DNA from: an uncultured Spirochaetota bacterium
GTDB taxonomy: Bacteria > Spirochaetota > Spirochaetia > Treponematales > UBA12059
Assembly (NCBI GenBank): GCA_937873275.1
Contig: CALMRC010000157.1
Location: 1 to 41,181, forward strand
DNA length: 41,181 bases
Reading direction: 5' to 3'
The notes below the pieces were generated by a model. It saw nothing but the letters and a program-made list of their open reading frames with translations. It had not been told where the DNA came from and did no database searches. Below, piece after piece: positions 3,777 through 33,648 of this stretch. The translations under genes and the position numbers were made by a program. The first letter of the stretch is position 1. Every line of letters starts with the position of its first letter.

Positions 3777-3828
3777 GGGATGCTCCTTGTTGTCGGGGCC
3801 GCCGGGAGGCCGGCCCGGAATGGCCCGG

Positions 3829-6744
3829 TCAGGCGGGCGTTTTCTCGATTTCGGCCTCGGGCCCGGATGTCTTCGAGGCGTGCTTCATCAGGAACCGGGG
3901 CTTGGTCAGGACCAGCAGGGCGGGGAACAGGGTCACCGAGAAGAGTGAGCTGGTCAGCATGATGAGGGCCATGAGCAGGCCCATGAAGACGTTGCCCCGG
4001 AGCTGGCTGAACAGGAGGGCCGCGAAGCCCGCGGCGACGGCCAGGGCGTTCACGAAGATGCCCTTTCCGGTGGTCCGCATCGTCTCCTCGATGGCCGGTC
4101 CCAGGTCCATCCGGGGGAGCGTACCCTTGAGCCTCTCCAGGAAGTGGCAGACGTAGTCGATCCCGATCCCGATCCCGATGGACGCGATGGTGGCCGTGGA
4201 GATGTCGATGGGAATGCCGAAGATGGACATCACGCCGAAGTTGATGGCCAAGGCGGCCGAGAGGGGGATGACGGAGAAGGCCCCTTCTGCCAGGCTGCCG
4301 GACATCAGGGCGATGAACAGGAGGCAGACGACCAGGGAGGCCAGGACGGAGGAAACCTGGGACGTGACCAGGAGCCGGAGTATGGCCATCGTCAGGTTGG
4401 ACAGCCCCGTGATGTCCGCCCGGGAGTCCGACGGGAACTCTTCCGCTATGTAGGCCCGGGCGCGGTCCTGGATCTGCCCCAGGACGGTGGAGCTGGCGGT
4501 CTTCAGGAAGACGTTGATCCGGGCGGTGCGCCGGGGATTGTCCAGGAATCCCTCGATGTTCTCCGGATCCCCGGAGTTCTCGTACTGGAAGACCAGCTGG
4601 CCCGCGTAGTCCCGGCCGGGGATGAGGTCCCGGGCCGTACCGGCGCTCAAGTCGATCTCCCGGCGTACGCCCCCGATCTCGATCGAGGCGGTGTCGCCCC
4701 GCAGGGTAAGCCCCGAGTCCGCCGCGTAGGTCGCGAGAAGTTCGCCCGTTTCGGAGTCCCGTTCCTCCAGGACGCCGCCCCGGAGGCGGTATCGTTCCGT
4801 GGTGACCGGCACGGGGGTCAGGTCGTCCGGGACCTTGTCGAAGGCCGGGTCGTCCGCGTTGAGGGCCTTGTTGATGCCTTTCACGAAGGTGACGATGGAT
4901 TGGGACCCTCCCACGACCTGTCGTGCGTCCCCGTACCCCGGCTCCCCGGGGGCGAGGATCCGCTTCCCGTCCAGACGCAGGAGTTCGAGGCGGGACTGCA
5001 GCCGATCCATGGCGCGCAGGACCCCGGGCTCCAAAACCGCCCCGTCCTCCCCGGTCCGCACGATCACGGTCATGACCGTGATGCCCGAGAAGTTCTCGTT
5101 CAGGTACTCCGAGGCCCGCCGGATCTCGCTGGACCGGCGGAAGGAGTTCAGGGTGTTCGACTCGAAGGCGACCCCCGGGGCGAAGGCGCCGATCCCCAGG
5201 ACCGCCGCCAGGCAGACGGCCAGCACGGGCACGGGGCGGGCGGCGGTGAAGCGGCCGGCCCGGGCCAGGGCGCCGGCCAGGCGGGAGCCGTCGTGGGCTT
5301 CCACGGTCCGTTCCCGGGGCCGAGGCAGAAGGGCCAGCAGCGCGGGGGTGAAGGTGAGGCTCAGGACCAGGGCGAAGAGGATCCCGAGGGCGGACAGGAT
5401 GCCGAACATCCGAAGCGCCGCCAGGCTGGATACCGCCAGGGAGGCGAAACCGATCATCGTCGTCGCCCCGGCCAGGAACACCGGCTTGGCGACATGGCCG
5501 ACCGCGGATTCCACCGCCGACCGGACGTCGATGGACCCGAGCAGGTCCTCGTAGTACCGGTTGATGACGTGGATCGTGTAGGCCGTGCCCACGGCGATCA
5601 GGATGATGGGGAGCACCATCGTGGCCATGCTGATGGGCTGGCCCAGGAGCCCCATGAGTCCCATGGCCCAGACCACGGACAGGATCACGTTGACCAGCGG
5701 GAAGAGGACGCCCCGGAGGGTCCGGAAGGACAGGAACAGGACGACGATGATGACCAGGATGACCACGGGGAATAGGTGACCCAGATCCGTGATCAGGAGC
5801 CGGCTGACGATGCCGGAGACCGCCTTGGAGCCCGAGACGAACACCTCGCCGTCCGTGCGGACGGACAGACTCTCCAGGGCCCGGGTCACCCGGTCATACC
5901 CGGTGGACGGGGACGAGAGGTACGCGGCCTTCCACCCCCGCGCGGAGGCCCGGGCCAGGACGGAGGCTGCCGCCTTCCCGGGATCCGCGGCCGGGTCGAG
6001 TTCCGCCAGGACCCGGGATGTGCCCTTCCGGTCCGGGCCGATTCTCGACCCGAAGCGGATCCACGCGTCCCCGAGGTCCGTCTCGGAAGCCGGGGAGTAC
6101 ACGCGAAGGACCGCGGGGACGGGGCCGTCGGGGGATTCGACGGACAGGGCCGCGAGGTCCGCCTCGAAGGACCCGTCCGGGGAAGCGCCCCGGGGAAGGG
6201 TGATCTCGACCCGCCGGAGGGGCTCGGTATCCAGGCCCTCCCGAAGGGTCAGGAGGATCGAGGTGGACCGGCCGTCCTTGCCGATGAGGCTTTCGGTCAT
6301 GGGGCTCGTCGTGACCCGGTCCCGGAAGGCTGCGATTTCCCCGTCCGTTTCCGGAACGGACGGCATCGCCTCCTCGATCACGAGTCCTTCCTCCGTGCCC
6401 CGGATGAGTCCCGCGGAGGCCAGGGAGATGACGTTCTTGACTCCGTCCACCCGGGAGAGGGCGTCGGACCATTCCCGGACCTGGCGGAGCATGCCCGGGG
6501 AAAAGACTCCGCGGCTGTCGGTCAGGGCCACGATGAGGAAGTCGTCGGAGGGGAAGATCTTGCCGACCTCGTCGTAGAAGGCCTTTTCGGGGACCGTGTC
6601 GGGGATGTCGTCGGTCATGTCCGCGTCGACGGTCATGCGCGTAAGTCCGAAGCCCAGTCCGAGGGTTACCGCCAGGGTGAGGGCGATGACCGTCCGGGGG
6701 CGGGAGGCGACGAACCGGGAGAGGGGTTTGAAGCCGATGCTCAT
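3829..6744 (-). CDS. RND superfamily (MMPL/HAE3-like) exporter
   Basis: 971 residues with the RND layout duplicated: one N-terminal helix (about 18-36), a large periplasmic domain, a five-helix bundle (about 325-480), then helix 7 (about 500-520), a second periplasmic domain and a final bundle (about 790-955). The second half keeps the proton-relay style motif GIGIDYVCHFLERLKG. The first half has GTAYTIHVINRYYE, where the aspartate of DY is Ala, a variant known in this RND group. It overlaps tetR by four bases (ATGA). With the LolA-like and barrel proteins it would form an inner-membrane pump, periplasmic carrier and outer-membrane partner, plausibly for lipids or amphiphiles. The substrate cannot be read from sequence. 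Confidence 0.9.
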   Translation of the reverse strand: MSIGFKPLSRFVASRPRTVIALTLAVTLGLGFGLTRMTVDADMTDDIPDTVPEKAFYDEVGKIFPSDDFLIVALTDSRGVFSPGMLRQVREWSDALSRVDGVKNVISLASAGLIRGTEEGLVIEEAMPSVPETDGEIAAFRDRVTTSPMTESLIGKDGRSTSILLTLREGLDTEPLRRVEITLPRGASPDGSFEADLAALSVESPDGPVPAVLRVYSPASETDLGDAWIRFGSRIGPDRKGTSRVLAELDPAADPGKAAASVLARASARGWKAAYLSSPSTGYDRVTRALESLSVRTDGEVFVSGSKAVSGIVSRLLITDLGHLFPVVILVIIVVLFLSFRTLRGVLFPLVNVILSVVWAMGLMGLLGQPISMATMVLPIILIAVGTAYTIHVINRYYEDLLGSIDVRSAVESAVGHVAKPVFLAGATTMIGFASLAVSSLAALRMFGILSALGILFALVLSLTFTPALLALLPRPRERTVEAHDGSRLAGALARAGRFTAARPVPVLAVCLAAVLGIGAFAPGVAFESNTLNSFRRSSEIRRASEYLNENFSGITVMTVIVRTGEDGAVLEPGVLRAMDRLQSRLELLRLDGKRILAPGEPGYGDARQVVGGSQSIVTFVKGINKALNADDPAFDKVPDDLTPVPVTTERYRLRGGVLEERDSETGELLATYAADSGLTLRGDTASIEIGGVRREIDLSAGTARDLIPGRDYAGQLVFQYENSGDPENIEGFLDNPRRTARINVFLKTASSTVLGQIQDRARAYIAEEFPSDSRADITGLSNLTMAILRLLVTSQVSSVLASLVVCLLFIALMSGSLAEGAFSVIPLSAALAINFGVMSIFGIPIDISTATIASIGIGIGIDYVCHFLERLKGTLPRMDLGPAIEETMRTTGKGIFVNALAVAAGFAALLFSQLRGNVFMGLLMALIMLTSSLFSVTLFPALLVLTKPRFLMKHASKTSGPEAEIEKTPA

Positions 6745-7340
6745 GGTGCGATTCCTTTGATCAAGATTTCCTCCAGGCTCGCGCGGATACGATCGGCGTC
6801 CGCGCCGGACAGGATGGGTTGTTCGAGGTGGGCCAGGACGCCGGAAAGCATCGCGAACAGGATGCCTCCGAGGACGCGGGGATCCTCCTTCCGGAACTCC
6901 CCGGACTCGATACCTTGCCGCATGATGCCCACGATCCGTTTGGGTATTTCCTGGGAAAGCCGCCGGATCTCGTCCCGTTCCGGACCCGGGGGCAGGCGCT
7001 CGCGGAACGACCTCATCTCGTGGAGGATCGAGCTGTATCCCCGGCTGCGGAAGTGCTCGTCCAGGTAGAGGCGGATCAGGGCGCGCAGCTTGTCGCGCGC
7101 CGGGCCGTCCCGGTCGCCGATTTCCCGGATGCCGACCAGGGCCTCGGTCAGTTCGCGCAGGACCAGGGAGCTGAGAAGCTCTTCCTTGCTCTTGAAATAG
7201 TAGTAGAGGGCCGGCTTGGTGTAGCCCAGCGACTCGGCCACCGTCTCCAGCGTCGTCCCCTCGGGTCCCCGTTCCCGGAGCACCCGGAGCGCAGCCTCCC
7301 GGATCTCGTCCCGGGTTTTTTCGTAGTCCCTTCCCGCCAT
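6741..7340 (-). CDS. TetR/AcrR-family repressor of the RND cassette
   Basis: 199 residues. The N-terminal TetR helix-turn-helix is clear (TLETVAESLGYTKPALYYYF, about residues 30-49, then KSKEELL), followed by an all-helical ligand-binding domain. It is the first gene of its operon and overlaps the RND gene by 4 bp, so it should be co-transcribed with its target. Its start codon lies 19 bp from two tandem palindromes that cover the -10 box of the only upstream promoter, which strongly suggests autorepression and substrate-induced release. The ATG is preceded by GGAGAGGAG. The ligand is probably a hydrophobic substrate or mimic of the pump, but this is inference. Confidence 0.92.
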   Translation of the reverse strand: MAGRDYEKTRDEIREAALRVLRERGPEGTTLETVAESLGYTKPALYYYFKSKEELLSSLVLRELTEALVGIREIGDRDGPARDKLRALIRLYLDEHFRSRGYSSILHEMRSFRERLPPGPERDEIRRLSQEIPKRIVGIMRQGIESGEFRKEDPRVLGGILFAMLSGVLAHLEQPILSGADADRIRASLEEILIKGIAP

Positions 7341-7358
7341 GGCGGCTCCTCTCCGGAA

Positions 7359-7399
7359 TATTTTACCCGAAGGTAAATATTTTACCTTCGGGTAAAATA
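7359..7399. promoter_or_regulatory. Double TetR operator (41-bp palindrome)
   Basis: A perfect 19-bp inverted repeat around a central TAT (7378-7380). It consists of two 16-bp sites, 7362-7377 and 7381-7396, each TTTACC-N4-GGTAAA and each palindromic in itself, with centres 19 bp apart. The block overlaps the tetR -10 box and start point, the classical position for repression by a TetR protein. Confidence 0.85.
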
Positions 7400-7422
7400 G
7401 TGATTTCCGTATGAAGTGTCAA
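7394..7422 (-). promoter_or_regulatory. Promoter of the tetR-RND-LolA-like-barrel operon
   Basis: On the minus strand TTGACA (7422-7417), 17 bp and TATTTT (7399-7394) make a near-consensus sigma-70 promoter. The -10 box lies inside the double operator. It is one of the best promoter matches in the window. Confidence 0.8.
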
Positions 7423-7450
7423 GCGGGACTTCCCGGGCCGAGCCTCCGCC

Positions 7451-7480
7451 TTGCGGGCCGCCTCCCCTTTGGGCTAGTAT
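7451..7480 (+). promoter_or_regulatory. Candidate promoter of trpS-dNK
   Basis: TTGCGG (7451-7456), 18 bp, TAGTAT (7475-7480). This leaves a leader of about 40 nt before the trpS ATG at 7527. It is about 30 bp from the divergent tetR promoter and outside the operator palindrome. Confidence 0.45.
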
Positions 7481-7526
7481 CACGGCATTCCCGCCCGAAA
7501 CCACGATCGACGGAGATACGGCAACC

Positions 7527-8572
<1,046 letters not shown>

Positions 8573-8576
<4 letters not shown>

Positions 8577-9217
8577 AGAAGTACCTGGTCCTGGCGGGCA
8601 ATATCGGGGCGGGCAAGTCCACGCTGGTCGGGCTCCTGGCCCAGCGTCTCGGGTTCCGGCCCTACTACGAGCCCGTGGCGGAAAATCCCTACCTCGCGGA
8701 CTTCTACGCCGACATGGGCCGGTGGGCCCTCCAGAGCCAGCTCTTCTTCCTTACCCATCGCGTCCGGACCCACCGCGCCCTCATGGACGATCCCAGCTCG
8801 GTCGTCCAGGACCGCTCCCTCTACGAGGACGCGGAGGTGTTCGCCCGGAACCTGCACGAGCAGGGGGCCCTGAGCGGCCGGGACTGGGCCACCTACCGGG
8901 AACTCTACACCACTGTGGCGGACCTGCTTCCGCCCCCGGACCTGGTCATCTACCTGCGGGCCTCCGTGCCCACCCTGAAGCGGCGGATCGCCAAGCGGGG
9001 GCGGGATTTCGAGGCGTCCATAGCCGACGAATACCTGGCCGGCCTCAACCGCCTCTACGAAGAGTGGATCGAGGGCTTCGACCGGGCGCCCGTGCTGGTC
9101 GTGCCCGGGGACCGGCTCGACTTCGTGGAGGAGTCCGCGGACTTCCGGGCCATAGCCTCCACCATCGCCGAGCGCCTCCGGGACAAGCAGGGCGCTCTCT
9201 TCCCGTATGGAATGTAG
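8573..9217 (+). CDS. Deoxynucleoside kinase (deoxyadenosine/deoxyguanosine kinase family)
   Basis: 214 residues, typical of the dNK/dCK/dGK family, which phosphorylate deoxynucleosides at the 5' position for salvage. The P-loop GNIGAGKST lies at residues 9-17. The DRS motif (QDRSLYEDAEVF) and the arginine-rich LID (LKRRIAKRGRDFE) are present, all expected for activity. ATG 8573 overlaps the trpS stop. Which deoxynucleoside is preferred cannot be read with confidence. A 12-bp hairpin starts directly after the stop codon and may end the transcript. Confidence 0.92.
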
Positions 9218-9244
9218 CGTGGGTCCGGCTGCGCCGGACCCACG
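9218..9244. terminator. 12-bp hairpin directly after the deoxynucleoside kinase gene
   Basis: Arms 9218-9229 and 9233-9244 pair perfectly (CGTGGGTCCGGC and its complement) with a TGC loop, starting at the base after the stop. There is no T-tract, so it may be a Rho-assisted terminator or 3'-end stabiliser. Its right arm runs into the REP-like copy at 9241. Confidence 0.55.
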
Positions 9245-9280
9245 GCAGCGAAGCCCTGCCGGGCCTCGCCGAATTCCTGG
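9241..9280. repeat. Diverged copy of the REP-like unit seen at 1-117
   Basis: About 33 of 40 positions match the left-edge repeat, from CACGGCA through the hairpin to the CGAAT tail. Stem arms are 9248-9256 and 9261-9269. The outermost A-T pair of the left copy is a G-C pair here, a compensatory change, while one inner pair is lost. Confidence 0.65.
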
Positions 9281-9281
9281 A

Positions 9282-9371
9282 AACCGGCTCGATGGAAGCC
9301 GGTTGACCTGCGGGCAATTCGCCGAAGCTTGCTTCGGCGCCGCCAAGCCGGCATCGCCGGCTTGGCGGCGC
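9282..9371. repeat. Cluster of three further inverted repeats, including a 16-bp stem
   Basis: Hairpins: 9282-9289 with 9297-9304 (8 bp, 7-nt loop); 9320-9328 with 9331-9339 (9 bp); and 9337-9352 with 9356-9371 (16 bp perfect, ATC loop). The second and third overlap and are mutually exclusive. The last could be a bidirectional terminator between the convergent kinase and lipoprotein genes. Confidence 0.7.
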
Positions 9372-9402
9372 ACTCCGTGGTTGATTCCGGGAAGATGTTC
9401 CC

Positions 9403-10986
9403 CTAGAACGCGAAGCCCACCCCGAGACCTCCCGCGTAGTACCAGCTGGAGAAGGCCGCCCACTCCCCGGCGGCGTAGGCGGAAACCACCAGACCCGAAT
9501 CCGGGGCGTACCAGTGCGCCTCGGCGCCCACGGACAGGGGAGGCCGGAACCCCGGCGTGCCGCCGAAGGGCTCCGTCCGGACCGCCGCGGAGAGGGCCAG
9601 GGCCAGGTCTCCTCCCAGTACCCCGGGCAGGAGGGCTTCCGCCCCGGCCCGGCCGTAGGCCCAGGCGAAGAGTCCGGGCGTCGCCTGGGGGCCGTCCTCC
9701 CACCCGGGGTAGTAGGTCGACGCGTGGGCGTGTAGGCTGCCGAAGACCCGGGAGGTCCGGGTGGAGGCCTCCAGGACGATACCCGCGTCCAGGCCGGGAT
9801 ACCGGGCCGGGCCGTCCCAGGAGGGCGGGAACCCCGAGGAGGCCTCGTCCAGGAAGCTCGCCACCGAGGCGGAGGCCAGGAAGGCGGCCGCTCCCCGGGG
9901 TCCCCCGGCCAGGGCGGTCTTCACGGAGACCGTGACGGAACCCCAGGAAGGATCCGCCCCGGAATACCCGAAGTACGGGACGAGCATCCCCGACGCGACG
10001 AGCTCCGATTTCCCTCCGAAGAGACCCCCCACGCGGACGCCCGCGAAGGCCGGCATCCGGGCCGCGGAGTCGGCGCCCCGGGGGGTCGCAAGGAGGTAGG
10101 TCCCGACGGAGGCCTGGAAGGAACCCTCCGGCAGGATCCGGGCGTCCGGGGCGAAGAGGGCCCCGGAAAATCCCCCGTGCAGGCTCGAGAACCGCTGGGG
10201 ATCCGCCTCCGGGGTCACCTCCACCACGGTCTCCAGGGAAGAAGCCCCGCCGTCCTCCCCCGCGGCGGTCAGACGGGCGTAGTAGGTCCCGGGGGGCGAC
10301 GCCCGGCGCGATTCGTCCCTCCCGTCCCAGGTATGGCTTCCGAAGGCGGAATCGAGATCGAGGTCCCGGACGGATAGGACCGTCCGTCCGTCGGGCCCCC
10401 GGATCTCCAGGTCCGCCCGTCCGGGGGCGGATACGGACCACTCGAACCGGGTCCGGCCCAGGGATCCCGGGGCGCCGGGGTCGAAGGAAGCCGGGGCGGC
10501 CTCCAGGCCCGTGAGACGGAAGGCCGCCGGGGGCATCCAGGCTTCGAGCTCGACCTGGGCTCCGACCCCCACGACCGTCCGGGCGGACCAGGCCTCGTAG
10601 CCGAAGGCCCGGGCTTCCACGAACCGCTCCCCGGCGTCCACCTCCGCGGAGCCTCCGGCATACGAACGCCCGTCCACGTACAGGGTAGCCCCGACGGGAA
10701 GGCCCCGCACGAGGATCCATCCCCGGTAGGCGGGCGGGGGCGGGGACGGGAAGAGGAATCCCGAGGAGGCGACATCGGCGGCGGGCGGATCCACGGGCCT
10801 GGCCGGAGGGGGCGAGTCCTTCTTTCGCTGGGCGGCTATCGCCGCGGCGGAGGAATCCCCCGTCGCGGATGCCTCGTACGCGCCGCCGCTCATCCCGGCG
10901 CAGGATGCCAGGACGGATGCGGCGACGACCGCGGCGAGCACTGCGGGGCCGGACGGTTCGCGTACGGGAAGACGGGGCTTATTCAT
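9403..10986 (-). CDS. Lipoprotein with PEGA-like, FlgD-like Ig and beta-barrel regions
   Basis: 527 residues. The N-terminus is a lipoprotein signal with lipobox LASC (Cys29). A Ser/Pro-rich linker is followed by a PEGA-like segment (VRGLPVGATLYVDGRSYAG, then VDAGERFVEARAFGYE). About residues 190-260 hold a FlgD-like Ig module (HTWDGRDESRRASPPGTYYA). The C-terminal half reads like a beta-barrel (repeated aromatic/glycine strands) and ends GGLGVGFAF with a terminal Phe. A lipid anchor, surface-type modules and a barrel in one chain is an unusual order. It has its own RBS (GGAGGA) and a TATACT box about 20 bp upstream (11010-11005). No precise family or function is recognised; an envelope role is likely. 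Confidence 0.75.
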   Translation of the reverse strand: MNKPRLPVREPSGPAVLAAVVAASVLASCAGMSGGAYEASATGDSSAAAIAAQRKKDSPPPARPVDPPAADVASSGFLFPSPPPPAYRGWILVRGLPVGATLYVDGRSYAGGSAEVDAGERFVEARAFGYEAWSARTVVGVGAQVELEAWMPPAAFRLTGLEAAPASFDPGAPGSLGRTRFEWSVSAPGRADLEIRGPDGRTVLSVRDLDLDSAFGSHTWDGRDESRRASPPGTYYARLTAAGEDGGASSLETVVEVTPEADPQRFSSLHGGFSGALFAPDARILPEGSFQASVGTYLLATPRGADSAARMPAFAGVRVGGLFGGKSELVASGMLVPYFGYSGADPSWGSVTVSVKTALAGGPRGAAAFLASASVASFLDEASSGFPPSWDGPARYPGLDAGIVLEASTRTSRVFGSLHAHASTYYPGWEDGPQATPGLFAWAYGRAGAEALLPGVLGGDLALALSAAVRTEPFGGTPGFRPPLSVGAEAHWYAPDSGLVVSAYAAGEWAAFSSWYYAGGLGVGFAF

Positions 10987-20941: not shown

Positions 20942-22171
20942 ATGAATCGTTACCTGAAGACGGCCGCGATCCTGATCGCGATCGCCCTGGTCTTCGCGGG
21001 CTGCCAGAAGAAGCCCGCCGAGCCCGCCGGTCCGGCCAAGGCCGCGTTCCACATCGGCGTCGTGACCGGGACGGTTTCCCAGTCCGAGGACGACCTGCGC
21101 GGCGCCGAGGAGTTGATCAAGCGGTACGGCAAGGTGGCCGACGGCGGCATGATCCAGCACATCACCTATCCCGACAACTTCATGGATCAGCAGGAGACCA
21201 CCATCTCCCAGATCGTCGCCCTGGCGGACGATCCCCTGATGAAGGCCATCGTGATGAACCAGTCGGTGCCCGGCGCCGCGGAAGCCTTCAAGCGCGTCCG
21301 CGCCAAGCGGCCCGAGATCCTGCTCTTCGCGGGCGAACCCCACGAGGATCCCCTCGTCATCGAGGCGGCCGCCGATCTCGCCCTCAACAGCGACTTCATC
21401 TCCCGCGGCTACACCATCATCTGGGCCGCCAAGGAGCTGGGCGCCAAGACCTTCGTCCACATCTCCTTCCCCCGGCACATGTCCTACGAGACCCTGGGCC
21501 TCCGCCGCCAGATCATGGAGCAGGCGTGCAAGGACCTGGGCCTGAAGTTCGTCTTCGAGACCGCCCCGGATCCGACCTCCGACGTCGGCCAGGCCGGTGC
21601 CCAGCAGTTCATCCTCGAGAAGACCCCCCAGTGGATCCAGAAGTACGGCAAGGAAACCGCCTTCTTCTGCACCAACGACGCCCACACCGAGCCCCTGCTC
21701 AAGCAGCTGCTCGCCTACGGCGGCATGTTCGTCGAGGCCGACCTCCCCTCCCCGCTGATGGGGTACCCGGGAGCCCTGGGCCTGGACCTCTCCGCCGAGG
21801 CCGGTAACTTCCCCGCCATCCTCAAGAAGGTCGAGCAGGCCGTCGTGGACAAGGGCGGCGCCGGCCGCTTCGGAACCTGGGCCTTCAGCTACGGCTTCAC
21901 GGTCACCGCGGGTCTCGGCGAGTTCGCCAAGAACATCATCGAGGGCAAGACCACCAAGGACAGCCTGCAGGGTCTCTACGACGCCCTCGCGGTCTACACC
22001 CCCGGCGCCCAGTGGAACGGCGGCTACTACATCGACGCCAACACCGGCGTCCGCGCCAAGAACCACGTCCTGGTCTACATGGACACCTACATCTTCGGGA
22101 AGGGCTACCTGCCCACCACGAAGCAGAAGGTCGACGAGAAGTACTACAACATCAAGTTCCAGAAGCAGTAA
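20942..22171 (+). CDS. DUF3798 substrate-binding lipoprotein of an ABC importer
   Basis: 409 residues. A lipoprotein signal with lipobox FAGC (Cys21) anchors it outside the inner membrane. The rest is a two-lobed periplasmic-binding fold of the DUF3798 type, distantly related to ribose/BMP-like binding proteins: FHIGVVTGTVSQSEDDLRGA opens lobe one, and AFFCTNDAHTEPLLKQLLAYG and GGYYIDANTGVRAKNHVLVY are typical of the family. A perfect AAGGAGG lies 6 bases before ATG 20942. Arginine codons are mostly CGC rather than the CGG common in neighbours, which fits high expression. The ligand is unknown. Confidence 0.92.
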   Translation: MNRYLKTAAILIAIALVFAGCQKKPAEPAGPAKAAFHIGVVTGTVSQSEDDLRGAEELIKRYGKVADGGMIQHITYPDNFMDQQETTISQIVALADDPLMKAIVMNQSVPGAAEAFKRVRAKRPEILLFAGEPHEDPLVIEAAADLALNSDFISRGYTIIWAAKELGAKTFVHISFPRHMSYETLGLRRQIMEQACKDLGLKFVFETAPDPTSDVGQAGAQQFILEKTPQWIQKYGKETAFFCTNDAHTEPLLKQLLAYGGMFVEADLPSPLMGYPGALGLDLSAEAGNFPAILKKVEQAVVDKGGAGRFGTWAFSYGFTVTAGLGEFAKNIIEGKTTKDSLQGLYDALAVYTPGAQWNGGYYIDANTGVRAKNHVLVYMDTYIFGKGYLPTTKQKVDEKYYNIKFQKQ

Positions 22172-22334
22172 CCGTACCGTCCGCGTGGTCGTGCCGGGCG
22201 CCGATCGCGCACGGGGCGGCCCGGGCCGGCCCCGGGGACGACCCGGGTCCGGCCATAGCGCGCGCCAGCCCCCTCGGCGCCGCCTCTCCACCCGGCCGGA
22301 CCCACCCGGCCGATTCAGCACGGAAGGTGCCTCT
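22172..22334 (+). other. GC-rich self-complementary spacer inside the ABC operon
   Basis: 163 bp without a gene. It contains the palindrome GGCCCGGGCC (22218-22227) and a 6-bp stem GGCCGG/CCGGCC (22224-22229 with 22249-22254). Such a structured gap may stabilise the binding-protein mRNA and lower read-through to the ATPase. No promoter of good quality is seen. Confidence 0.35.
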
Positions 22335-23936
22335 ATGTCGAATGAATCGCCTTTATTGAGTTTCGAGGGAATCACCAAGGATTTCTACGGCACGGTGGTC
22401 CTCAAGGACGTGTCCTTCACCCTGGGCCGGGGCCAGATCCTGGGCCTCGTCGGGGAGAACGGCGCGGGCAAGACGACGCTCATGAGCGTCCTCTTCGGAA
22501 TGCCGGTCATCTCCGAGACCGGCGGCTTTTCCGGGGCCGTGAAACTGGACGGCCAGGCCGTCTCCTTCCGCAATCCCTTCGACGCCCTGGACGCGGGCAT
22601 CGGGATGGTGCACCAGGAGTTCTCCCTGATACCCGGCTTCACGACCACGGAAAACATCGTGCTGAACCGGGAGTCCCTGAAGGCCGGTCCGGCCGTCGAG
22701 GTCTTCGGGGAGCGGCTTTCCGTCCTGGACCGCCCCGCGATGCGGGCCCGGGCGGAATCCGCGATCGGTCGCCTGGGGGTCAAGCTGGATCCCGAGATGC
22801 TCGTCTCGGAGATGCCGGTCGGCCACAAGCAGTTCACCGAGATCGCCCGGGAGATCAACCGGGACAACGTCCGGCTCCTGGTCCTCGACGAGCCGACGGC
22901 GGTGCTCACCGAGAGCGAGGCCGAGGTACTCCTGACCGCCCTCCGGAACCTGGCCGCCCAGGGCATCTCCATCATCTTCATTTCCCACCGGCTTCACGAG
23001 GTCCTGTCCATCTGCGACCGGATCGTGACCCTCCGGGACGGGCACGTCGTGAAGGACACGGAAGCCAAGGGCGTGACCGTGGCGGACGTGGCCTCCTGGA
23101 TGGTGGGCCGGGGAGTGGACGAGACGAGCCGGAAGGGTGCCGCCCGCGAGCTTCCCGGCAAGGCCCTGGAGGTCGAGAACCTCTGGGTGGACATGCCGGG
23201 AGAGACCGTGCGAAACGTCTCCTTCTCCGTGCGGGAGGGGGAGATCTTCGGGATCGGGGGCTTGGCCGGACAGGGCAAGCTGGGCATCCCGAACGGGATC
23301 ATGGGACTCTATCCCGCGGGCGGCACGGTCCGGCTCCACGGCGAACCCGTCACCCTGGACGCCCCCCGGGCGGCCCTGGACGCGGGCATGGCCTTCGTGA
23401 GCGAGGACCGCCGGGGCGTGGGCCTGCTGCTGGACGAGAGCCTGGACTGGAACATCGCCTTCACGGCCATGCAGGTCAAGGGCGAGTACCTGAAGACCTA
23501 CCTGGGGGGCCTCGTGCGCCTCCGGGACGAGAAGGCGATGCGGGCCCTGACGGAGGAGTACGTGAAGCTGCTGGACGTCAAGTGCACCGGGCCCAAGCAG
23601 AAGGCCAAGGAGCTGTCCGGGGGCAACCAGCAGAAGATCTGCCTGGCCAAGGCCTTCGCCCTCAAGCCCACGGTCCTTTTCGTCTCGGAACCCACCCGGG
23701 GCATCGACGTGGGAGCCAAAGCCCTGGTGCTGGACAACCTGCGCCACTACAACCGGGACTTCGGCACCACCATCGTGATGGTCTCCAGCGAGCTCGAGGA
23801 ACTCCGGTCCATCTGCGACCGGATCGCCATCGTGGACGAGGGCCGCATCGCCGGCATACTGTCCCCCGACGCCCCGCTGTCCGAGTTCGGGCTCCTGATG
23901 GCGGGCGTAAAGGTCGCCGAGGAGGTCCGGCCGTGA
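22335..23936 (+). CDS. ABC importer ATPase with two nucleotide-binding domains
   Basis: 533 residues of the RbsA/MglA/NupO-like twin ATPase class. Domain 1 has a full Walker A (GENGAGKTT, 40-48) and Walker B (LLVLDEPTA, about 181-189), but its signature is degenerate (EMPVGHKQF). Domain 2 has a degenerate Walker A (GLAGQGKLG) and a good signature LSGGNQQK (427-434), while the Walker B aspartate is Ser451 with the catalytic Glu452 kept (FVSEPTRGIDVG). Complementary degeneration predicts one main hydrolysis site. The frame is open further upstream, but ATG 22335 follows GGAAGG and begins the family-typical N-terminus. Its stop overlaps the next gene (GTGA). Confidence 0.94.
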   Translation: MSNESPLLSFEGITKDFYGTVVLKDVSFTLGRGQILGLVGENGAGKTTLMSVLFGMPVISETGGFSGAVKLDGQAVSFRNPFDALDAGIGMVHQEFSLIPGFTTTENIVLNRESLKAGPAVEVFGERLSVLDRPAMRARAESAIGRLGVKLDPEMLVSEMPVGHKQFTEIAREINRDNVRLLVLDEPTAVLTESEAEVLLTALRNLAAQGISIIFISHRLHEVLSICDRIVTLRDGHVVKDTEAKGVTVADVASWMVGRGVDETSRKGAARELPGKALEVENLWVDMPGETVRNVSFSVREGEIFGIGGLAGQGKLGIPNGIMGLYPAGGTVRLHGEPVTLDAPRAALDAGMAFVSEDRRGVGLLLDESLDWNIAFTAMQVKGEYLKTYLGGLVRLRDEKAMRALTEEYVKLLDVKCTGPKQKAKELSGGNQQKICLAKAFALKPTVLFVSEPTRGIDVGAKALVLDNLRHYNRDFGTTIVMVSSELEELRSICDRIAIVDEGRIAGILSPDAPLSEFGLLMAGVKVAEEVRP

Positions 23937-24976
23937 ATACCCTGAAACAGGCGGTCACCGATTTCGGCTGGCCCCGGATCATCATCTTCCTGTTCGTGGT
24001 CGCCCTGTTCATCGGGGCGCCCTTCGTGAACGTCCGGGTGGATTCCTCCTTCACGGACGTCTTCAACCGGTTCGGCCAGAACGCCGTCCTGGTCCTGGCC
24101 CTGGTGCCCATGGTCCAGGCGGGCTGCGGGCTCAACTTCGGCCTGCCCGTCGGGATCATCGCGGGGCTCCTGGGCTCCACCCTGGCCATGGAGTTCGGCC
24201 TGGTCGGATGGGCCGGGTTCCTGGGGGCGATCGCCCTGGCCCTGCCCTTCGCGGTGGCGTTCGGCTTCGCCTACGGGTTCCTCCTGAACAAGGTGAAGGG
24301 CGAGGAGATGACCATCGCCATGTACGTGGGCTTCTCCATCGTCACCTTCTTCGCGATCCTCTGGCTCCTCCTGCCCTACTCCAGCCCCAACATGGTCTGG
24401 GGCTACGCGGGCCGGGGCCTGCGAACCACGATCACCCTGGAAGGATACTGGGGGCGCATCCTCAACGACTTCCTGGCCCTCCGGATCGGGGAGAACTTCC
24501 AGTTCCCCACGGGCATGATCCTCTTCGTGGTCTTGCTGACCGTCCTCATGGGTTTCTTCCTCCGGAGCAAGACCGGGACGGCCATGACCGCCGTCGGGTC
24601 CAACCCGGACTTCGCCCGGGCGGGCGGGGTGTCCGCGGACCGGATGCGCCTGACCAGCGTGGTGCTCTCCACGGTGATCGGGGCGGTCGGAATCCTGGTC
24701 TACCAGCAGAGCTTCGGGTTCATCCAGATCTACAACGCCCCCCTGTTCATGGCCTTCCCGGCCGTGGCGGCCCTCCTGATCGGGGGAGCCTCCGTCAACA
24801 AGGCCAGCATGCTGAACGTGATCGTGGGCACCTTCCTCTTCCAGTCCATCCTGACGATGACCCCCTCGGTCATCAACAGCGTACTGCAGACGGACATGTC
24901 CGAGGTGATCCGCATCCTGATCTCCAACGGCATGATCCTGTACGCCCTGACCCGAAAGACGAAGGTGACGAAATGA
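23933..24976 (+). CDS. ABC importer permease 1 (BPD_transp_2 / RbsC-NupP type)
   Basis: 347 residues with about nine hydrophobic helices. The family signature lies in MTAVGSNPDFARAGGVSADRM, the cytoplasmic coupling loop before SVVLSTVIGAVG. The start is GTG 23933, overlapping the ATPase stop by four bases, with GGAGG upstream. It ends in an ATGA overlap with permease 2. The two permeases are related and should form a heterodimer, as in nucleoside importers of the NupPQ kind. Confidence 0.92.
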   Translation: MNTLKQAVTDFGWPRIIIFLFVVALFIGAPFVNVRVDSSFTDVFNRFGQNAVLVLALVPMVQAGCGLNFGLPVGIIAGLLGSTLAMEFGLVGWAGFLGAIALALPFAVAFGFAYGFLLNKVKGEEMTIAMYVGFSIVTFFAILWLLLPYSSPNMVWGYAGRGLRTTITLEGYWGRILNDFLALRIGENFQFPTGMILFVVLLTVLMGFFLRSKTGTAMTAVGSNPDFARAGGVSADRMRLTSVVLSTVIGAVGILVYQQSFGFIQIYNAPLFMAFPAVAALLIGGASVNKASMLNVIVGTFLFQSILTMTPSVINSVLQTDMSEVIRILISNGMILYALTRKTKVTK

Positions 24977-26082
24977 GCAAGACAATCGACGTTCGCAAGA
25001 TCCTCGCGGACAACCTGGTGGTCGTCATCTTCCTGGTGATCACGGCCTTCGCGGTCCCCGTTTCGGGCCTGTCCGCCCAGTTCATCATCCAGGAGCTCCT
25101 CACGCGCATCGGCCGGAACGCCTTCCTGGTCTTCTCCCTCCTCCTGCCCATCATGGCGGGCATGGGCATCAACTTCGGCATGGTCCTGGGGGCCATGGCC
25201 GGGGAGATCGGCCTGATCGTCGCCGTCGATTGGGGCATCCTGGGGGTCAACGGCCTGGCCCTGGCTGCCCTGGTGGGCATGCCCGTGGCGGTGCTCCTCG
25301 GATGGCTCGCCGGGGAGGTCCTGAACCGGGCGCGGGGACGCGAGATGGTGACCGGGTACATCCTGGGGTTCTTCATGGACGGGGTGTACCAGCTCATCGT
25401 CCTGTACATGATGGGTTCCATCATCCCCATCCGCTCCCCGGCCATCACCCTGTCCCGGGGCTACGGCATCCGGAACACCCTGGGGCTCGATTCCGTGCGC
25501 CAGTCCCTGGATACCCTCCTGGCGGTCCGGGTCGGACCCTACGTCCTTCCCATGGCCACCTACGTCGTCATCGGCCTCCTGTGCCTCTTCATCCTCTGGT
25601 TCCGCAGGACCAAGCTGGGCCAGGACATGCGGGCCATCGGGCAGGACCAGGGTGTGTCCCATTCCGCGGGCATCGCGGTGGAGCGGACCCGCATCATCGC
25701 CATCGTGATCTCCACGGTCCTCGCGATGATCGGCCAGATCATCTTCCTCCAGAACATGGGGAACATGGCCACCTACAACGCCCACAAGCAGACGGGGTTC
25801 TTCGCGGCCGCGGCCCTGCTGGTGGGGGGCGCCTCGGTCTCCAAGGCGACGATCCCGAACGTCTTCATCGGGGTCGTCCTTCTGCACCTGATGTACATCG
25901 TGATGCCCCGGGCTGGGGCCCAGCTCTTCGGGCAGGCCCAGATCGGGGAATTCTTCCGGGACGCCCTGTCCTACGCAGCCATCGCCATGGCCCTGGTCAT
26001 CTACGCCTGGCGGAAGAGGGCGAACGCGGACAAGGCCCGGGCGGGGCTCCGGGGCGGGGAAGCCGCGGGAGGCGCGAAATGA
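24973..26082 (+). CDS. ABC importer permease 2 (BPD_transp_2 / RbsC-NupQ type)
   Basis: 369 residues, about ten hydrophobic helices. The coupling loop reads MRAIGQDQGVSHSAGIAVERT, followed by IIAIVISTVLAMIGQII. An early segment IMAGMGINFGMVLGAMAGEIGL parallels GCGLNFGLPVGIIAGLLGS of permease 1, showing common descent. ATG 24973 overlaps the permease 1 stop (ATGA), and the end overlaps the accessory gene (ATGA). Confidence 0.92.
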   Translation: MSKTIDVRKILADNLVVVIFLVITAFAVPVSGLSAQFIIQELLTRIGRNAFLVFSLLLPIMAGMGINFGMVLGAMAGEIGLIVAVDWGILGVNGLALAALVGMPVAVLLGWLAGEVLNRARGREMVTGYILGFFMDGVYQLIVLYMMGSIIPIRSPAITLSRGYGIRNTLGLDSVRQSLDTLLAVRVGPYVLPMATYVVIGLLCLFILWFRRTKLGQDMRAIGQDQGVSHSAGIAVERTRIIAIVISTVLAMIGQIIFLQNMGNMATYNAHKQTGFFAAAALLVGGASVSKATIPNVFIGVVLLHLMYIVMPRAGAQLFGQAQIGEFFRDALSYAAIAMALVIYAWRKRANADKARAGLRGGEAAGGAK

Positions 26083-29731: not shown

Positions 29732-31552
29732 ATGGCACGGCGAGCGCTTTCGAACATCGGGATCCTGGGGAAAATGACGGTTCTCGGCGTCGTTTTCCTG
29801 CTTTCCCTGGGAGGCGTGTCCATCGTGTCCCTGCGGGCCTTCCGGGCCCTCACGGCCTCGATGGACCGTATGCTCGTCGTGCACAACGAGCGCGTCCGTC
29901 GCCTCGAGGATCTGGAGAACCAGGCCTACGCGGTCCAGGTGGCCCTGTACCGGGCCATCAACCTGGCTACGAACGGCGCGGAGCCGACCCTGTTCACGGT
30001 ATCCCAGCGGGCCTTCCAGTCCGCCCTGGCCGCGTTCAAGACCTCGGTGGATACCCTTCCGGAAGCCGAGGGGGAGCCGACCGGCGACGCCTCGGCCGCT
30101 TCGCCCGAGGGGCTTCAACGGAACGATTTCGAGAACTACTTCAACCAGGCGCGACGGGTCCAGGGTTTTCTCGGAACGGATTTACGGCAGGCCCAGTCCG
30201 CCTTGCCGGACCTGGACGACGCCTTCGACGCCCTGAGGGAGATGATCTGGGTCGAGTCGTCCAACGCCCGGGCTCAGGCCTCGGAGTCGGAGTCCGGGGC
30301 CCGGAAGTCCGCCGCCGCGGCTTCGTTCACCATCCTGTCCGCGACCGCCGCGGTCACCCTCCTGGCCCTGCTCCTGATCCTCCTGACCGTCCGCTCCATC
30401 ACGGTGCCCCTCCGGAAGCTGGAGGATACCCTGGCCCAGGCCGGCCGCGGGGATCTGCGGTCCTGTTCGGACCTGGACGGGCGGGACGAGATGGGCCGGA
30501 TGGGCCGGAGCGTGGACGCCCTGGTCTGCGGCATCCGGGATCTCGTCGCCACGGTGATGGAGAAGGTCCGGGACCTCGAGACCACGGGTCAGAGCCTTTC
30601 GGCGAACATGGAGGAGACCGGGGCCGCGGTGCTCCAGATCAACGCGGGCATCGGGAACACCCGGGGCCAACTGGACCAGCAGACGAATTCGGTGCAGGAG
30701 GTCTCCGCGGCGGTCGAACAGCTCGCCCGGAGCGTCGCGGCCCTCTCGGACCGGATCGGGACCCAGTCGGACGTGATCGGCCAGTCCTCGGCGGCCACCG
30801 AGGAGATCATCGCCTCCGTGGAGGCCGTGGCCCGCGCCGCGGACTCGGCGGCCCGGGCCAGCGAGGAGCTGACCGGCGTGGGCGTCCAGGGCAAGGAGAG
30901 GATCGACGAGGCCGGGGAGTCCGTCCGGGAAATCGCCCGGCATTCCGAGAACCTCACCGAGGCCGTGCGGCTGATCTCCGAGATCGCCAGCCGCACGAAT
31001 CTCCTGGCCATGAACGCGGCCATCGAGGCCGCCCACGCCGGCGACGCGGGCCGGGGGTTCGCGGTGGTCGCGGACGAGATCCGCAGGCTCGCGGAGCAGT
31101 CCACCACCCAGGCCAAGGACATCGCCGGGGGGCTCGGGCAGGTTTCCGGGGCCATCGAGAAAGTGCAGGAGGCGTCCCTCTCCGCGGTGGACTCCTTCGG
31201 GATCGTGCTGGCCAAGGCGGACGCCCTGGGGGCGGAGATCCGGCGGATCAACCAGTCCATGACGGAACAGCGGGAGGGCGGCCGGCTCGTGCTGGAGGAC
31301 CTGACCCGCCTTAAGGACCTCACCCGGGAGATCTCCTCCGGGGCGGAGGAGATGAAATCCGGCAACCGGACCATCCTGGAGCAGGTGGAGCGCCTGGGCG
31401 ACGTGAACCGGCTGGTCCTGCAGAACAACGCGGAGATCACCACGGGCACCAAGGAGATCAACGACGCCATCGCCGCGACCATGGACCTGGCCTCCCGGAC
31501 GGCGACCTCCATCGGGGACGTGCGGTCGGCGCTGGAATCCTTCGAGATCTAA
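29732..31552 (+). CDS. Methyl-accepting chemotaxis protein
   Basis: 606 residues. Membrane helices at about 12-33 and 198-222 enclose a helical periplasmic ligand domain (four-helix-bundle type). A HAMP domain follows (about 222-275, [19 protein letters not shown]). The signalling tip is intact: [20 protein letters not shown] then [18 protein letters not shown] (about 416-455). ATG 29732 is chosen over a GTG two codons upstream because GGAGG is spaced correctly from it. The stimulus is unknown. Its TAA shares bases with the convergent TAG of the EcfT-like gene. Confidence 0.94.
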
Positions 31553-32172
31553 CGGATCGCCCGGACCAGGTAGGGAAGCCACGCGGCCGCGGCCGCCAGG
31601 AACAGAATCGCCGAACCCGCCCCTCCCCGTCCCCTCGGGGCGGCGTTCCGCCGGCTCGGATCCGTCGACGGTACCTCGTCGTAGATGCCCAGGAGAGCCT
31701 CGTCCAAGTCCGAGAGGAAAGACGCGCGCCGCAGCTTGATCCGGGTTTCCAGGATACGCTCGTAGCAGAGCAGGGAAGCGCCGATCAGGCTGCCGGCCCG
31801 TCCGGGTATCCGGAGGTCCGAGCGGATCGCGGCCTTGGAGACGTAGATCAGGGCCTCGAAGGTGACGGCCTTCTCGACCCCCTCCCAGAGGGCGGTTTCC
31901 GTGACTCGGATCGGTCCCCAGACGGCCAGGACCCGCCCCACCGGGACCAGCAGGTTCGCCCCGACGATCCCGAGGATCACCAGGGTCGTTCCCAAAACGG
32001 GGACCCTGCGGCCCGTGGCCCAGGCGAAGGCCATGGCTCCCAGGAGGATCGACGTCCGGGGGACCAGGTCGGGTTGGAAGAGCAAGGCGGCGATGGCGGA
32101 AAGCCCCGCGGCCGCCAGGGCGTAGGGATCGAAGAGCCTCCGGGACCGCTCCGCCCGGGCGAGCCTATCCAC
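31549..32172 (-). CDS. Membrane protein resembling an ECF transporter T component (EcfT/CbiQ-like)
   Basis: 207 residues with four or five hydrophobic helices. The order [19 protein letters not shown] near the start and [20 protein letters not shown] in the middle resembles EcfT/CbiQ proteins. The Ala-Arg-Gly coupling motif is not obvious, and no ATPase is encoded here. It is the last gene of the cassette slyD-like, NusG-II, Gx transporter, EcfT-like and overlaps the Gx gene by 8 bp. A role as partner of the Gx membrane protein is inferred; the family assignment is tentative. Confidence 0.62.
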
Positions 32173-32713
32173 GGGCGTCCTCCCGGGCCCGGGCGTACCA
32201 TCGGGAGGAGGCGGAGAACCGCTCGGCGAAGGCGCCCAGGGCCAATCCTGTGGCGAGCCCCATGGCCAGGAAGACCGGGGCGATGATCCGGGCCGCTCGG
32301 CCGAAGACCACGAGGGAGGCCAAAACCACCTGCACCGCGTTCGAGGACACCGCCCCCAGGACGCTGATCCCCACGGCGCTGATCCGGCTACGGAACAGGG
32401 CCCGGGCTCCGTACATGACCAGGGCGGCGCACAGGGTTCCGGCCAACGAGAACAGGGCCACGTAGGAGAAGAGGGATCCCGTCACCAGGCTCATTCCGAG
32501 CACCTTGACGGCCGCCAGGGCCAGGAACGGCCCGAAGGGCAGGAGGTCCACCGCCAGCAGGAGGGGCAGGTTGGCGATCCCAAGGCGCATGAAGGGAAGG
32601 GGTTTGGGGATCATGTATTCCACGGCGGAGAGGAAGAAGCAGAGGGCCGAGAGGAAGGCCAGCAGCCGGGATCGGGAATCACCAGGTGCCGGAATCGACG
32701 CCCTCGGGGTCAT
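32165..32713 (-). CDS. Gx transporter family protein (heptaprenyl diphosphate synthase component I-like)
   Basis: 182 residues with five or six helices, typical of the Gx/Hpre_diP_synt_I membrane family: FFLSAVEYMIPKPLPFMRLG, IANLPLLLAVDLLPFGPFLA, KVLGMSLVTGSLFSY and LGAVSSNAVQVVLAS. These are S-component-like proteins; despite the name no prenyl synthase activity is implied. ATG 32713 has GGAGGG and overlaps the NusG-II gene by 35 bp, so the open frame further upstream is not used. NusG-II plus Gx is a recurrent pair, sometimes near flavin or quinone genes. Confidence 0.87.
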   Translation of the reverse strand: MTPRASIPAPGDSRSRLLAFLSALCFFLSAVEYMIPKPLPFMRLGIANLPLLLAVDLLPFGPFLALAAVKVLGMSLVTGSLFSYVALFSLAGTLCAALVMYGARALFRSRISAVGISVLGAVSSNAVQVVLASLVVFGRAARIIAPVFLAMGLATGLALGAFAERFSASSRWYARAREDARG

Positions 32714-33134
32714 CGGTCCCTCCTTCGACTCGTACGAACACCTGGTTCGGCAGGCACGCGACCCATTGGCCGGGCCGATCGATCGCTCCGGCGGCCACGC
32801 AGGTCTGGTTCGGGCAGGGGGAGCTCTCGATCGCCACCCGCCCCTCGTGGACATGAACGGTCGTGATACCCAGGGGACCCCGGACGCCGACTTCCCGTTC
32901 GTCGCCCAGGGGGTAGATCCACTCCTGGCCGTCCGCGTCGGTGATCACGACCCGGGGTTCTCCCGCGGCGTCCACGGCTCCGAGGGAGCTCAGGAAGACC
33001 GCGGCCGCGGCGGCCAGGATGGCCGCCGCATCCACCCAGGTGATCCGGAATTTCCGGGACCCTGCCCCCCGCGGACCCTGCGGGGCCGCCGGGCCGGGGT
33101 CCCGGGGTGCGTTCTCGTCAGCCGCAGCACCCAC
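32679..33134 (-). CDS. NusG domain II-containing membrane-anchored protein
   Basis: About 151 residues: a short Pro/Gly-rich start, one membrane helix (VDAAAILAAAAAVFLSSLGA) and an outer NusG-II domain (VVITDADGQEWIYPLGDERE, VRGPLGITTVHVHEGRVAIE, CPNQTCVAAGAI, WVACLPNQVFVRVEG). Three conserved Cys suggest redox or metal chemistry. It is not a transcription factor. The likeliest start is GTG 33134, overlapping the end of slyD by 17 bp; GTG 33035 would leave the helix almost at the N-terminus and is the alternative. Confidence 0.83.
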   Translation of the reverse strand: MGAAADENAPRDPGPAAPQGPRGAGSRKFRITWVDAAAILAAAAAVFLSSLGAVDAAGEPRVVITDADGQEWIYPLGDEREVGVRGPLGITTVHVHEGRVAIESSPCPNQTCVAAGAIDRPGQWVACLPNQVFVRVEGGTDDPEGVDSGTW

Positions 33135-33648
33135 AGCCGCAGCCGCCCTCGTCGCCGCAGTCGCAGTCGTCGTCGCACCCGTCGTGGGAGTGCACGTGGC
33201 CGTGGGCCAGCTCCTCGGCGGTGGCATCCCGGATGCCCACGACCTTGACGTCGAAGTGCAGATCCTCGCCGGCAAGGGGATGGTTGGCGTCCACGGTAAC
33301 CTCTCCGTCCTTGACCGCGACGACGGTGACGACCCGGGCGCCGTCCTCGCCGTGGGCCTCGAACTGCATCCCTTCCTCGATCTTGTCGGGATCCGCGAAG
33401 TTGGATTTCTGGACCGTGAAGACGAGATTCTCGTCGTACTCGCCGTACGCGTCCTCGGGGCGGATGACGCAGGACAGCTTCTCGCCTTCCTTCTTGCCCT
33501 CCAGCTGCTTCTCCAGGCCGGGTATCAGGTTCCCGTTGCCGTGGAGATACACGAGGGGATCCGATTCCTCGGAGCTGTCGATCGTCTCGCCGTCCGAATC
33601 CTTGAGGGTATAATCGATCGTGATGACCTTGTCTTTTTCTACGACCAT
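33118..33648 (-). CDS. SlyD-like FKBP peptidyl-prolyl isomerase with metal-binding tail
   Basis: 176 residues. The FKBP core opens with VITIDYTLKDSDGETIDSS and includes PLVYLHGNGNLIPGLEKQLE. The inserted chaperone flap of SlyD lies between, and NHPLAGEDLHFDVKVVGIRDA is the usual closing strand. The tail HGHVHSHDGCDDDCDCGDEG followed by a Gly/Cys-rich end should bind Ni or Zn. ATG 33648 has AAAGGTGG upstream and is favoured over a GTG three codons earlier. It heads the four-gene minus-strand cassette; the tight overlap suggests a shared metal or membrane-folding role, but SlyD is often a general chaperone. Confidence 0.93.
   Translation of the reverse strand: MVVEKDKVITIDYTLKDSDGETIDSSEESDPLVYLHGNGNLIPGLEKQLEGKKEGEKLSCVIRPEDAYGEYDENLVFTVQKSNFADPDKIEEGMQFEAHGEDGARVVTVVAVKDGEVTVDANHPLAGEDLHFDVKVVGIRDATAEELAHGHVHSHDGCDDDCDCGDEGGCGCGCCG

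Follow-up and report, generated by a model that had tools for sequence, protein, structure and literature searches.

We describe here a cassette of four overlapping genes in a 41,181-nt stretch of DNA (the window) from an uncultured Spirochaetota bacterium of the Treponematales (GenBank assembly GCA_937873275.1, contig CALMRC010000157.1, positions 1 to 41,181). The source genome measures 3.6 Mb in 200 contigs. The genes encode a SlyD-like FKBP, a NusG domain II (NusG-II) protein, a Gx transporter, and a last protein that resembles the T component of energy-coupling factor (ECF) transporters. The cassette is probably a spirochaete variant of the EetA-EetB-FmnA exporter of flavin adenine dinucleotide (FAD), which would feed ApbE.

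Genes of the cassette

The four genes lie on the minus strand and run, as overlapping reading frames, from 33648 to 31549:

33118..33648, minus strand: SlyD-like FKBP (Pfam FKBP_C, 2.9e-13)
32679..33134, minus strand: EetA, the NusG-II protein (Pfam NusG_II, 1.5e-20)
32165..32713, minus strand: EetB, the Gx transporter of family PF07456, named Hpre_diP_synt_I in Pfam (7.4e-33)
31549..32172, minus strand: last gene, a predicted EcfT/FmnA-like T component (predicted fold and hhalign; no Pfam match)

Counted from these starts, neighbouring genes overlap by 17, 35, and 8 nt, as an earlier reading made from the letters alone (the sequence-only reading) had stated. The NusG-II start is uncertain: the 17-nt overlap is that of a GTG at 33134, and the open frame reaches upstream as far as 33275.

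The Gx and NusG-II proteins were compared by BLASTP in a set of nine proteins. Gx matches Listeria EetB with 25% identity over 174 amino acids (aa) (E 8e-11), and the NusG-II protein matches Listeria EetA with 37% over 67 aa (E 3e-10). A hidden Markov model (HMM) of the spirochaete EetB family finds Listeria EetB at 4e-34 in a five-protein comparison. In a natural Gx-T fusion from a relative (L225), the EetB half matches the riboflavin S component RibU (5kbw_B) by VIA-align with Z 13.3 and a root-mean-square deviation (rmsd) of 2.8 over 163 aligned residues, which supports the S-component-like nature that had been proposed for Gx. EetA has one N-terminal transmembrane (TM)-like segment followed by the NusG-II domain, and its three Cys columns are invariant in 76/76 sequences. 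NCBIfam left the NusG-II and last proteins unmatched and gave Gx a chance match only (E 0.17). By sequence similarity, Gx is EetB, a predicted FAD-binding and export subunit of the ECF S-component type, and the NusG-II protein is EetA.

The last protein has no match in Pfam or NCBIfam, PF02361 (EcfT/CbiQ) included. A profile of 20 T-like proteins searched against PDB sequences found no ECF protein at E values up to 10, its one match, to a PPR protein, being due to chance, and BLASTP of the window protein against Listeria FmnA, in the nine-protein set, gave none. Evidence for a T component comes from structure prediction and profile-profile comparison. An AlphaFold2 model built from 20 homologues (pLDDT, a per-residue confidence score, 77.8) places ten ECF transporter chains at the top of a Foldseek search of the PDB, with 8bms_C (E 3.9e-4) the only match below 0.001. 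VIA-align superposes the model on 8bms_C with Z 13.4 and rmsd 3.5 over 204 residues; its first 11 rows are all ECF transporters, and the next row has Z 4.8. The molecule name EcfT was confirmed for 9kym, 4huq, 4rfs, 5d3m, 6zg3, 7nnt, and 7nnu, and T identity was taken from entry title, chain, and length for 8bms, 8bmr, 5x3x, and 5x41. With helical bundles, the tool cautions, a Z below about 13 can be unspecific, so the fold call rests on the gap to the next row and on the consistent ECF family. The L225 fusion was modelled with pLDDT 88.6 and a pTM (whole-model confidence) of 0.82, and its second half matches EcfT with Z of about 12. Foldseek on the whole fused model returned ECF chains mixed among others resembling the major facilitator superfamily, none at E ≤0.001; VIA alignment told the two halves apart.

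With FmnA as template, hhalign scores the T-like family at 91.6% (local) and 95.7% (global), against less than 0.2% for two unrelated families. When only the spirochaete EcfTs serve as the counterpart, the score is weak (28.6%, and 4.8% reversed), with unrelated families below 0.5%. FmnA scores 24.7 bits (bias 12.6) against the T-like family HMM. The model retains two helices past the fourth TM-like helix, at residues 125-142 and 152-165. The resemblance to EcfT noted by the sequence-only reading thus holds in the fold search and in profile-profile comparison with FmnA and EcfT, and fails in profile searches of Pfam and NCBIfam. Judged by predicted fold and profile-profile comparison, the last gene is a shortened EcfT/FmnA-like T component.

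Gene order, co-occurrence, and flavinylation setting

A scan of named genomes for homologues of the last gene yielded 19 loci, from genomes titled as spirochaete metagenome genomes apart from one titled simply 'bacterium'. SlyD, NusG-II, Gx, and the last gene stand in this order on one strand at all 19, and at 5 of them Gx and the last gene form one protein; because the order is kept throughout, the linkage exceeds chance. Scattering in close relatives, named by the sequence-only reading as the pattern that would speak against a cassette, is therefore not seen at the named loci but does occur in one genus of the same family (L060-L062). There Gx and the last gene stand without SlyD or NusG-II alongside, which tells against constant linkage, and in two of these genomes NusG-II sits on another contig. 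Across 30 P0004 loci from relatives, our own included, NusG-II adjoins in 25 and SlyD in 23; flanks here measure about 1.5 kb, and some missing neighbours may be cut off.

For a wider sample of the phylum, the surroundings of Gx (20 kb at most) were taken from 77 of the 137 further genomes that carry it. These comprise 57 loci of the same class (from 78 such genomes) and 20 from other classes; the 57 divide into 37 of the same order and 20 outside it. A T-like gene lies beside Gx in 24 same-class loci and is fused to it in 32, a total of 56/57; one of the adjacent cases, L148, has a split Gx frame and was for that reason scored by eye. The lone exception (L147) has an ordinary EcfT and two ATPases in place of the T-like gene. 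In Treponema-like genomes (L101-L103, L132, and L133), NusG-II has relocated, whereas the Gx-T fusion still has SlyD overlapping it or abutting on it.

The genome sets carrying eetB (PF07456) and eetA (PF07009) are identical, at 138 of 296 phylum genomes with zero discordant, or 62/139 genera for each family; these counts take genomes singly and ignore kinship, which weakens their support for the exporter reading. Because the sets coincide even where the genes lie far apart, they argue that EetA and EetB form a functional pair.

ApbE is found in 134/138 genomes with eetB and in 90/158 without it, and the four eetB genomes lacking it (G041, G044, G061, and G151) are 71-89% complete. It lies within 3 kb of eetB in 13/77 loci. 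The tie of NusG-II/Gx pairs to flavin and ApbE genes, suggested in the sequence-only reading, is borne out by these counts. Our own genome has one ApbE (4.3e-96) and three FMN_bind genes, of which two adjoin genes for Rnf-Nqr and NQR2/RnfD membrane proteins. The Nqr-like FMN_bind protein has SGAS at the flavinylation motif. The Rnf-like subunit (L205, 1453-3030, minus strand) lacks an SGAT-type pattern and reads TASTITS there by eye. The third gene (L207, 1471-1905) encodes a small, single-domain protein, lipoprotein-like by eye, with the motif DTVSGAT, and is possibly a PplA-like flavinylation target; a search of five loci of the genome at E 0.01 found no PplA homologue. ApbE shares one contig (L095, G000:C173, about 3821-10540) with a polyprenyl synthetase and a full-length Ndh2, 39% identical to its Listeria counterpart over 658 aa; these are ingredients for a chain of flavin-based extracellular electron transfer (EET) in a spirochaete. 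For the DHNA prenyltransferase of a Listeria-type chain, the genome offers one UbiA gene, with 26% identity over 299 aa to an Enterococcus MenA. Since ApbE, FMN_bind, Rnf/Nqr, and Ndh2 genes are all present in the genome, the setting is one of flavinylation and membrane electron transfer.

The first gene encodes a SlyD-like protein that scores 158.6 bits against NCBIfam PRK10737 (cut-off 174) and has 11 His/Cys in its last 40 residues. It has no TM-like window and is for this reason probably cytosolic. The metal-linked system imagined by the sequence-only reading finds no support beyond this His/Cys tail. Within the order, 9/37 loci have an FKBP gene on the same strand and no more than 700 nt upstream; one of these (L120) has a tail that is not SlyD-like. 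In 3 more, SlyD stands convergent downstream. In 8 genomes drawn from four other families of the phylum, the beginning of eetA is overlapped by a gene for a SurA/PpiC-type peptidyl-prolyl isomerase (PPIase):

SurA/PpiC-type PPIase upstream of eetA: L157, L160, L162, L163, L166, L173, L090, and L091

The overlaps measure about 4 to 194 nt when first possible start codons are used. SurA_N is present in these genes, and a rotamase domain too in 2/3 scanned by Pfam. A hydrophobic N-terminus is absent from the four proteins checked; in a longer frame of L163, a hydrophobic stretch precedes the likely Met, and the start is uncertain. The linkage of SlyD is real, and the occurrence of two unrelated PPIase types in the same place suggests a folding step of importance to EetA or EetB.

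Several further features of these loci were recorded. In another class, L174 (9883-12022) has a fusion of Gx/EetB with a shortened CbiQ domain, which matches only positions 9-145 of 216, and ApbE is the next gene downstream. A radical-SAM-like gene, identified by eye, lies just downstream of eetB in L156, L161, L171, and L172, also from other classes. A 714-aa frame in L139 (3725-5869) was considered as a T-ATPase fusion and rejected, as Pfam shows a phosphoglucomutase/phosphomannomutase-type domain instead; the T-like protein is there in frame with a protein of that type. In the window, a methyl-accepting chemotaxis receptor gene converges on the T-like gene, and the two, ending at 31552 and 31549, overlap in their stop codons. 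Scans of the cassette gave nothing useful: one sigma-70 promoter-like site, on the opposite strand, and one terminator-like site against 1.2 expected.

Coupling arginines and possible mechanisms of export

All T units bear two Arg-containing signatures, which in BioN couple to the ATPase (PMC3246461, in the part of its text available). Two Arg, at reference positions 160 and 196, are invariant (33/33 each) in ordinary EcfTs from relatives and our own genome, and Listeria FmnA carries both A-R-G motifs. Nowhere in the C-terminal half of 80 aligned full-length T-like sequences does Arg make up more than 42% of a column, the highest value being 31/73 at position 125; counting in 84 sequences trimmed to the conserved domain had the identical outcome. 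The literal pattern A-R-[GSAC] has a count of zero in 75/80 T-like sequences, against 8/33 EcfTs. By sequence, then, the T-like protein has lost the conserved ATPase-coupling arginines.

No EcfA is encoded in the cassette, as the sequence-only reading had said: a profile of EcfA-like ATPases run over the whole window found one frame (21759-23933, plus strand), which encodes a two-domain ATP-binding cassette (ABC) ATPase and lies 7.6 kb from the cassette. A branched-chain-type permease frame (24208-26082, by Pfam) adjoins it, so the two most likely belong to an ABC importer unrelated to the cassette. EcfA-like frames occur within 3 kb in 4/37 order loci, three on the opposite strand and the fourth beyond 2 kb. 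L147 (848-4602), from a 1.2-Mb same-class genome, has ApbE-EetA-EetB-EcfA-EcfT-EcfA in a row with an ordinary EcfT (PF02361, 8e-15), and is an ordinary ECF version of the exporter. In this comparison, directly linked ATPases go with an ordinary T component; elsewhere the T component is shortened.

The reading of the cassette as a FAD exporter is built on protein identities, fold, linkage, co-occurrence, and the loss of coupling arginines. From these we infer direction, the substrate here, non-use of ATP, and the roles of EetA and SlyD. EetB would take FAD on the cytosolic side and move it over the inner membrane, docked by the shortened EcfT/FmnA-like partner, with which it forms one polypeptide in many relatives. 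EetA, a membrane-anchored three-Cys protein that is probably extracytosolic, may pass FAD on or organize its delivery. ApbE would then link flavin mononucleotide (FMN) to periplasmic FMN-binding proteins, the candidates being the FMN_bind subunits of the Rnf- and Nqr-like clusters and the lipoprotein-like protein. SlyD would act as a co-encoded, probably cytosolic, folding helper. ApbE consumes FAD irreversibly, and this use could pull flux. Because the coupling arginines are gone and the ATPase is unlinked, export probably does without the usual drive by EcfA.

What powers export can be read in two ways. On the first, which we offer tentatively and place below an even chance, spirochaetes have turned an ECF transporter into a motorless FAD exporter. 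The docking fold would be kept and the coupling site lost, with permanent T-S pairing or fusion; the pull would come from ApbE; EetA would be an obligate extracytosolic partner (138/138 genomes); and a cytosolic PPIase from one of two unrelated families would have been recruited. The result would be the missing periplasmic flavin source in treponemes. We keep this proposal because the coupling site is gone, T is often fused to S, and ApbE uses FAD irreversibly. The second, quite possible though short of probable, is an ordinary ATP-driven ECF exporter in which EetB and the T-like protein borrow EcfA/EcfA' encoded elsewhere through a coupling surface other than A-R-G. Listeria uses EcfA/EcfA' for import and export alike (PMC9973259, by its available text). 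In our own genome, one locus combines EcfT with a two-domain ABC ATPase and a PF09819 protein; there are also an EcfA-EcfT pair and a further EcfA-like match, the strongest of the genome (G000:C159:522-1256, 271.9 bits against a TIGR04520 cut-off of 315). We take the PF09819 protein to be YkoE-like. Since the C159 match lies near a contig start, the assembly may have missed another ECF module. The TIGR04520 cut-off is reached in 0/14 genomes, those with ECF loci included, so the search does not discriminate EcfA. An ordinary EcfT match exists in 73/78 same-class EetB genomes, 72 of them above the cut-off.

The T model also keeps both of its late helices, and Arg139, in the first of them, is retained in 19/20 close homologues, 12/19 of a wider set, and 26/80 overall. 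It is conceivably a private substitute coupling residue in the close family, and this count makes a motorless exporter slightly less likely and a borrowed ATPase slightly more so. Set against borrowing are the absence, in the 80 T-like sequences, of a conserved counterpart to either EcfT-invariant arginine, and the attribution of both signatures to all T units, with ATPase coupling in BioN, in the available text of PMC3246461. Five of the 78 EetB genomes (G239, G246, G247, G253, and G286), all at least 95% complete, also have no ordinary EcfT match, and the T-like partner is present at 4/4 loci fetched from these. The motorless and shared-motor mechanisms are close to each other in support.

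The remaining alternatives concern substrate and SlyD. A different substrate, for instance a quinone or isoprenoid precursor, would suit the family's older name in Pfam (heptaprenyl diphosphate synthase component I), the polyprenyl synthetase adjoining eetB in Listeria and Enterococcus, and the polyprenyl synthetase on our apbE contig. We think this improbable given that Listeria EetB pulled down FAD and that delta-eetB loses PplA flavinylation, with EET partly rescued by external FAD (PMC9973259, as far as its available text goes); the ApbE co-occurrence and RibU as best structural match of the EetB half also oppose it. A heptaprenyl-diphosphate-synthase function as such was rejected on the Listeria FAD data, the ApbE co-occurrence, and the RibU match. 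SlyD may be a mere neighbour, a housekeeping FKBP whose stop codon falls at the start of the eet operon by happenstance, and we give this nearly even standing. Its absence from all 20 other same-class loci and the sparse, partly convergent or not SlyD-like occurrences among the 37 order loci favour chance; its persistence beside EetB-T where EetA has relocated, and the non-homologous PPIase overlapping eetA in four other families, oppose it.

Other observations weigh against FAD export by the cassette as we propose it, or against parts of that proposal. The 20 loci from other classes of the phylum have EetB without such a T neighbour. Our own ApbE is on another contig, away from the cassette, and ApbE does not require EetB, as it is present in 90/158 genomes without EetB. 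EcfA-like genes are encoded elsewhere in our genome, and FAD export in Listeria requires the ATPases EcfA/EcfA'; Listeria delta-eetA, moreover, shows no EET phenotype (both PMC9973259, within the text available). The retention of Arg139 and the confinement of SlyD linkage to the order belong here too. Taken with this evidence, FAD export feeding ApbE nonetheless remains our probable reading of the cassette.

Comparison with known systems

The sequence-only reading had called the membrane system undefined; it had already been defined as EetA-EetB FAD export (PMC9973259, in its available part). In that source, the role of EetB and FmnA in FAD export was shown genetically in Listeria, where EetB is a FAD-binding S component needed, with FmnA and EcfA/A', for export to FmnB/ApbE. 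EetB-ECF-T fusions in other bacteria are reported there too, and the EetB-T fusion as such is not new. Its text, so far as available, mentions neither spirochaetes nor NusG, and its Data Set S1 may list spirochaetes. PMC8238504 and PMC11334425 mention no spirochaetes, NusG, or ECF. Literature searches returned no paper joining NusG domain II with a Gx transporter, no title on a spirochaete exporter among those on spirochaetes, EET, and flavin, and only an FmnB structure for eetB with Treponema. Within the searches made, what is new is a shortened T component without conserved coupling arginines that is constantly paired with EetB in the class, together with the exact EetA-EetB co-occurrence and the PPIase linkage.

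The cassette offers a concrete spirochaete candidate for the step that supplies FAD to periplasmic ApbE. A T component without coupling arginines, often fused to S, is a natural test of whether toppling of the S component needs ATP, and the spirochaete T-S pair one of how ECF export and import differ. The exact co-occurrence argues for a conserved role of EetA, though the protein is without phenotype in Listeria.

Compared with Listeria EetA-EetB-FmnA, the spirochaete cassette has homologues of EetA and EetB in the same order and a partner of predicted T-component fold, and the genome also has relatives of ApbE, Ndh2, and polyprenyl synthetase. The T partner differs from FmnA in being shortened, in lacking conserved coupling arginines, and in being unmatched by Pfam. 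Its gene adjoins or is fused to eetB, whereas Listeria fmnA lies about 6 kb from eetB; SlyD stands in front, and apbE is on another contig. An enterococcal apbE locus contains a PF07456-type gene under the old name (PMC7074142, in the part available).

In Treponema pallidum, of the same phylum, the Ftp/ApbE work concerns the transferase and Rnf-type targets, and the available text of PMC4767422 names no exporter; the FAD source for periplasmic ApbE was unknown to its authors. With ECF transporters built on EcfT/CbiQ (PF02361), the cassette shares the S- and T-component folds, by prediction, and differs from them in its unlinked EcfA/EcfA', unconserved coupling arginines, and lack of a PF02361 match. 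The solitary S components BioY and BtuM transport without an ECF module, as cited in the available text of PMC11109136. Like these, the spirochaete cassette might allow S-fold transport without an ATPase; unlike them, it retains a T-fold partner and would work in the direction of export, with ATP independence only proposed.

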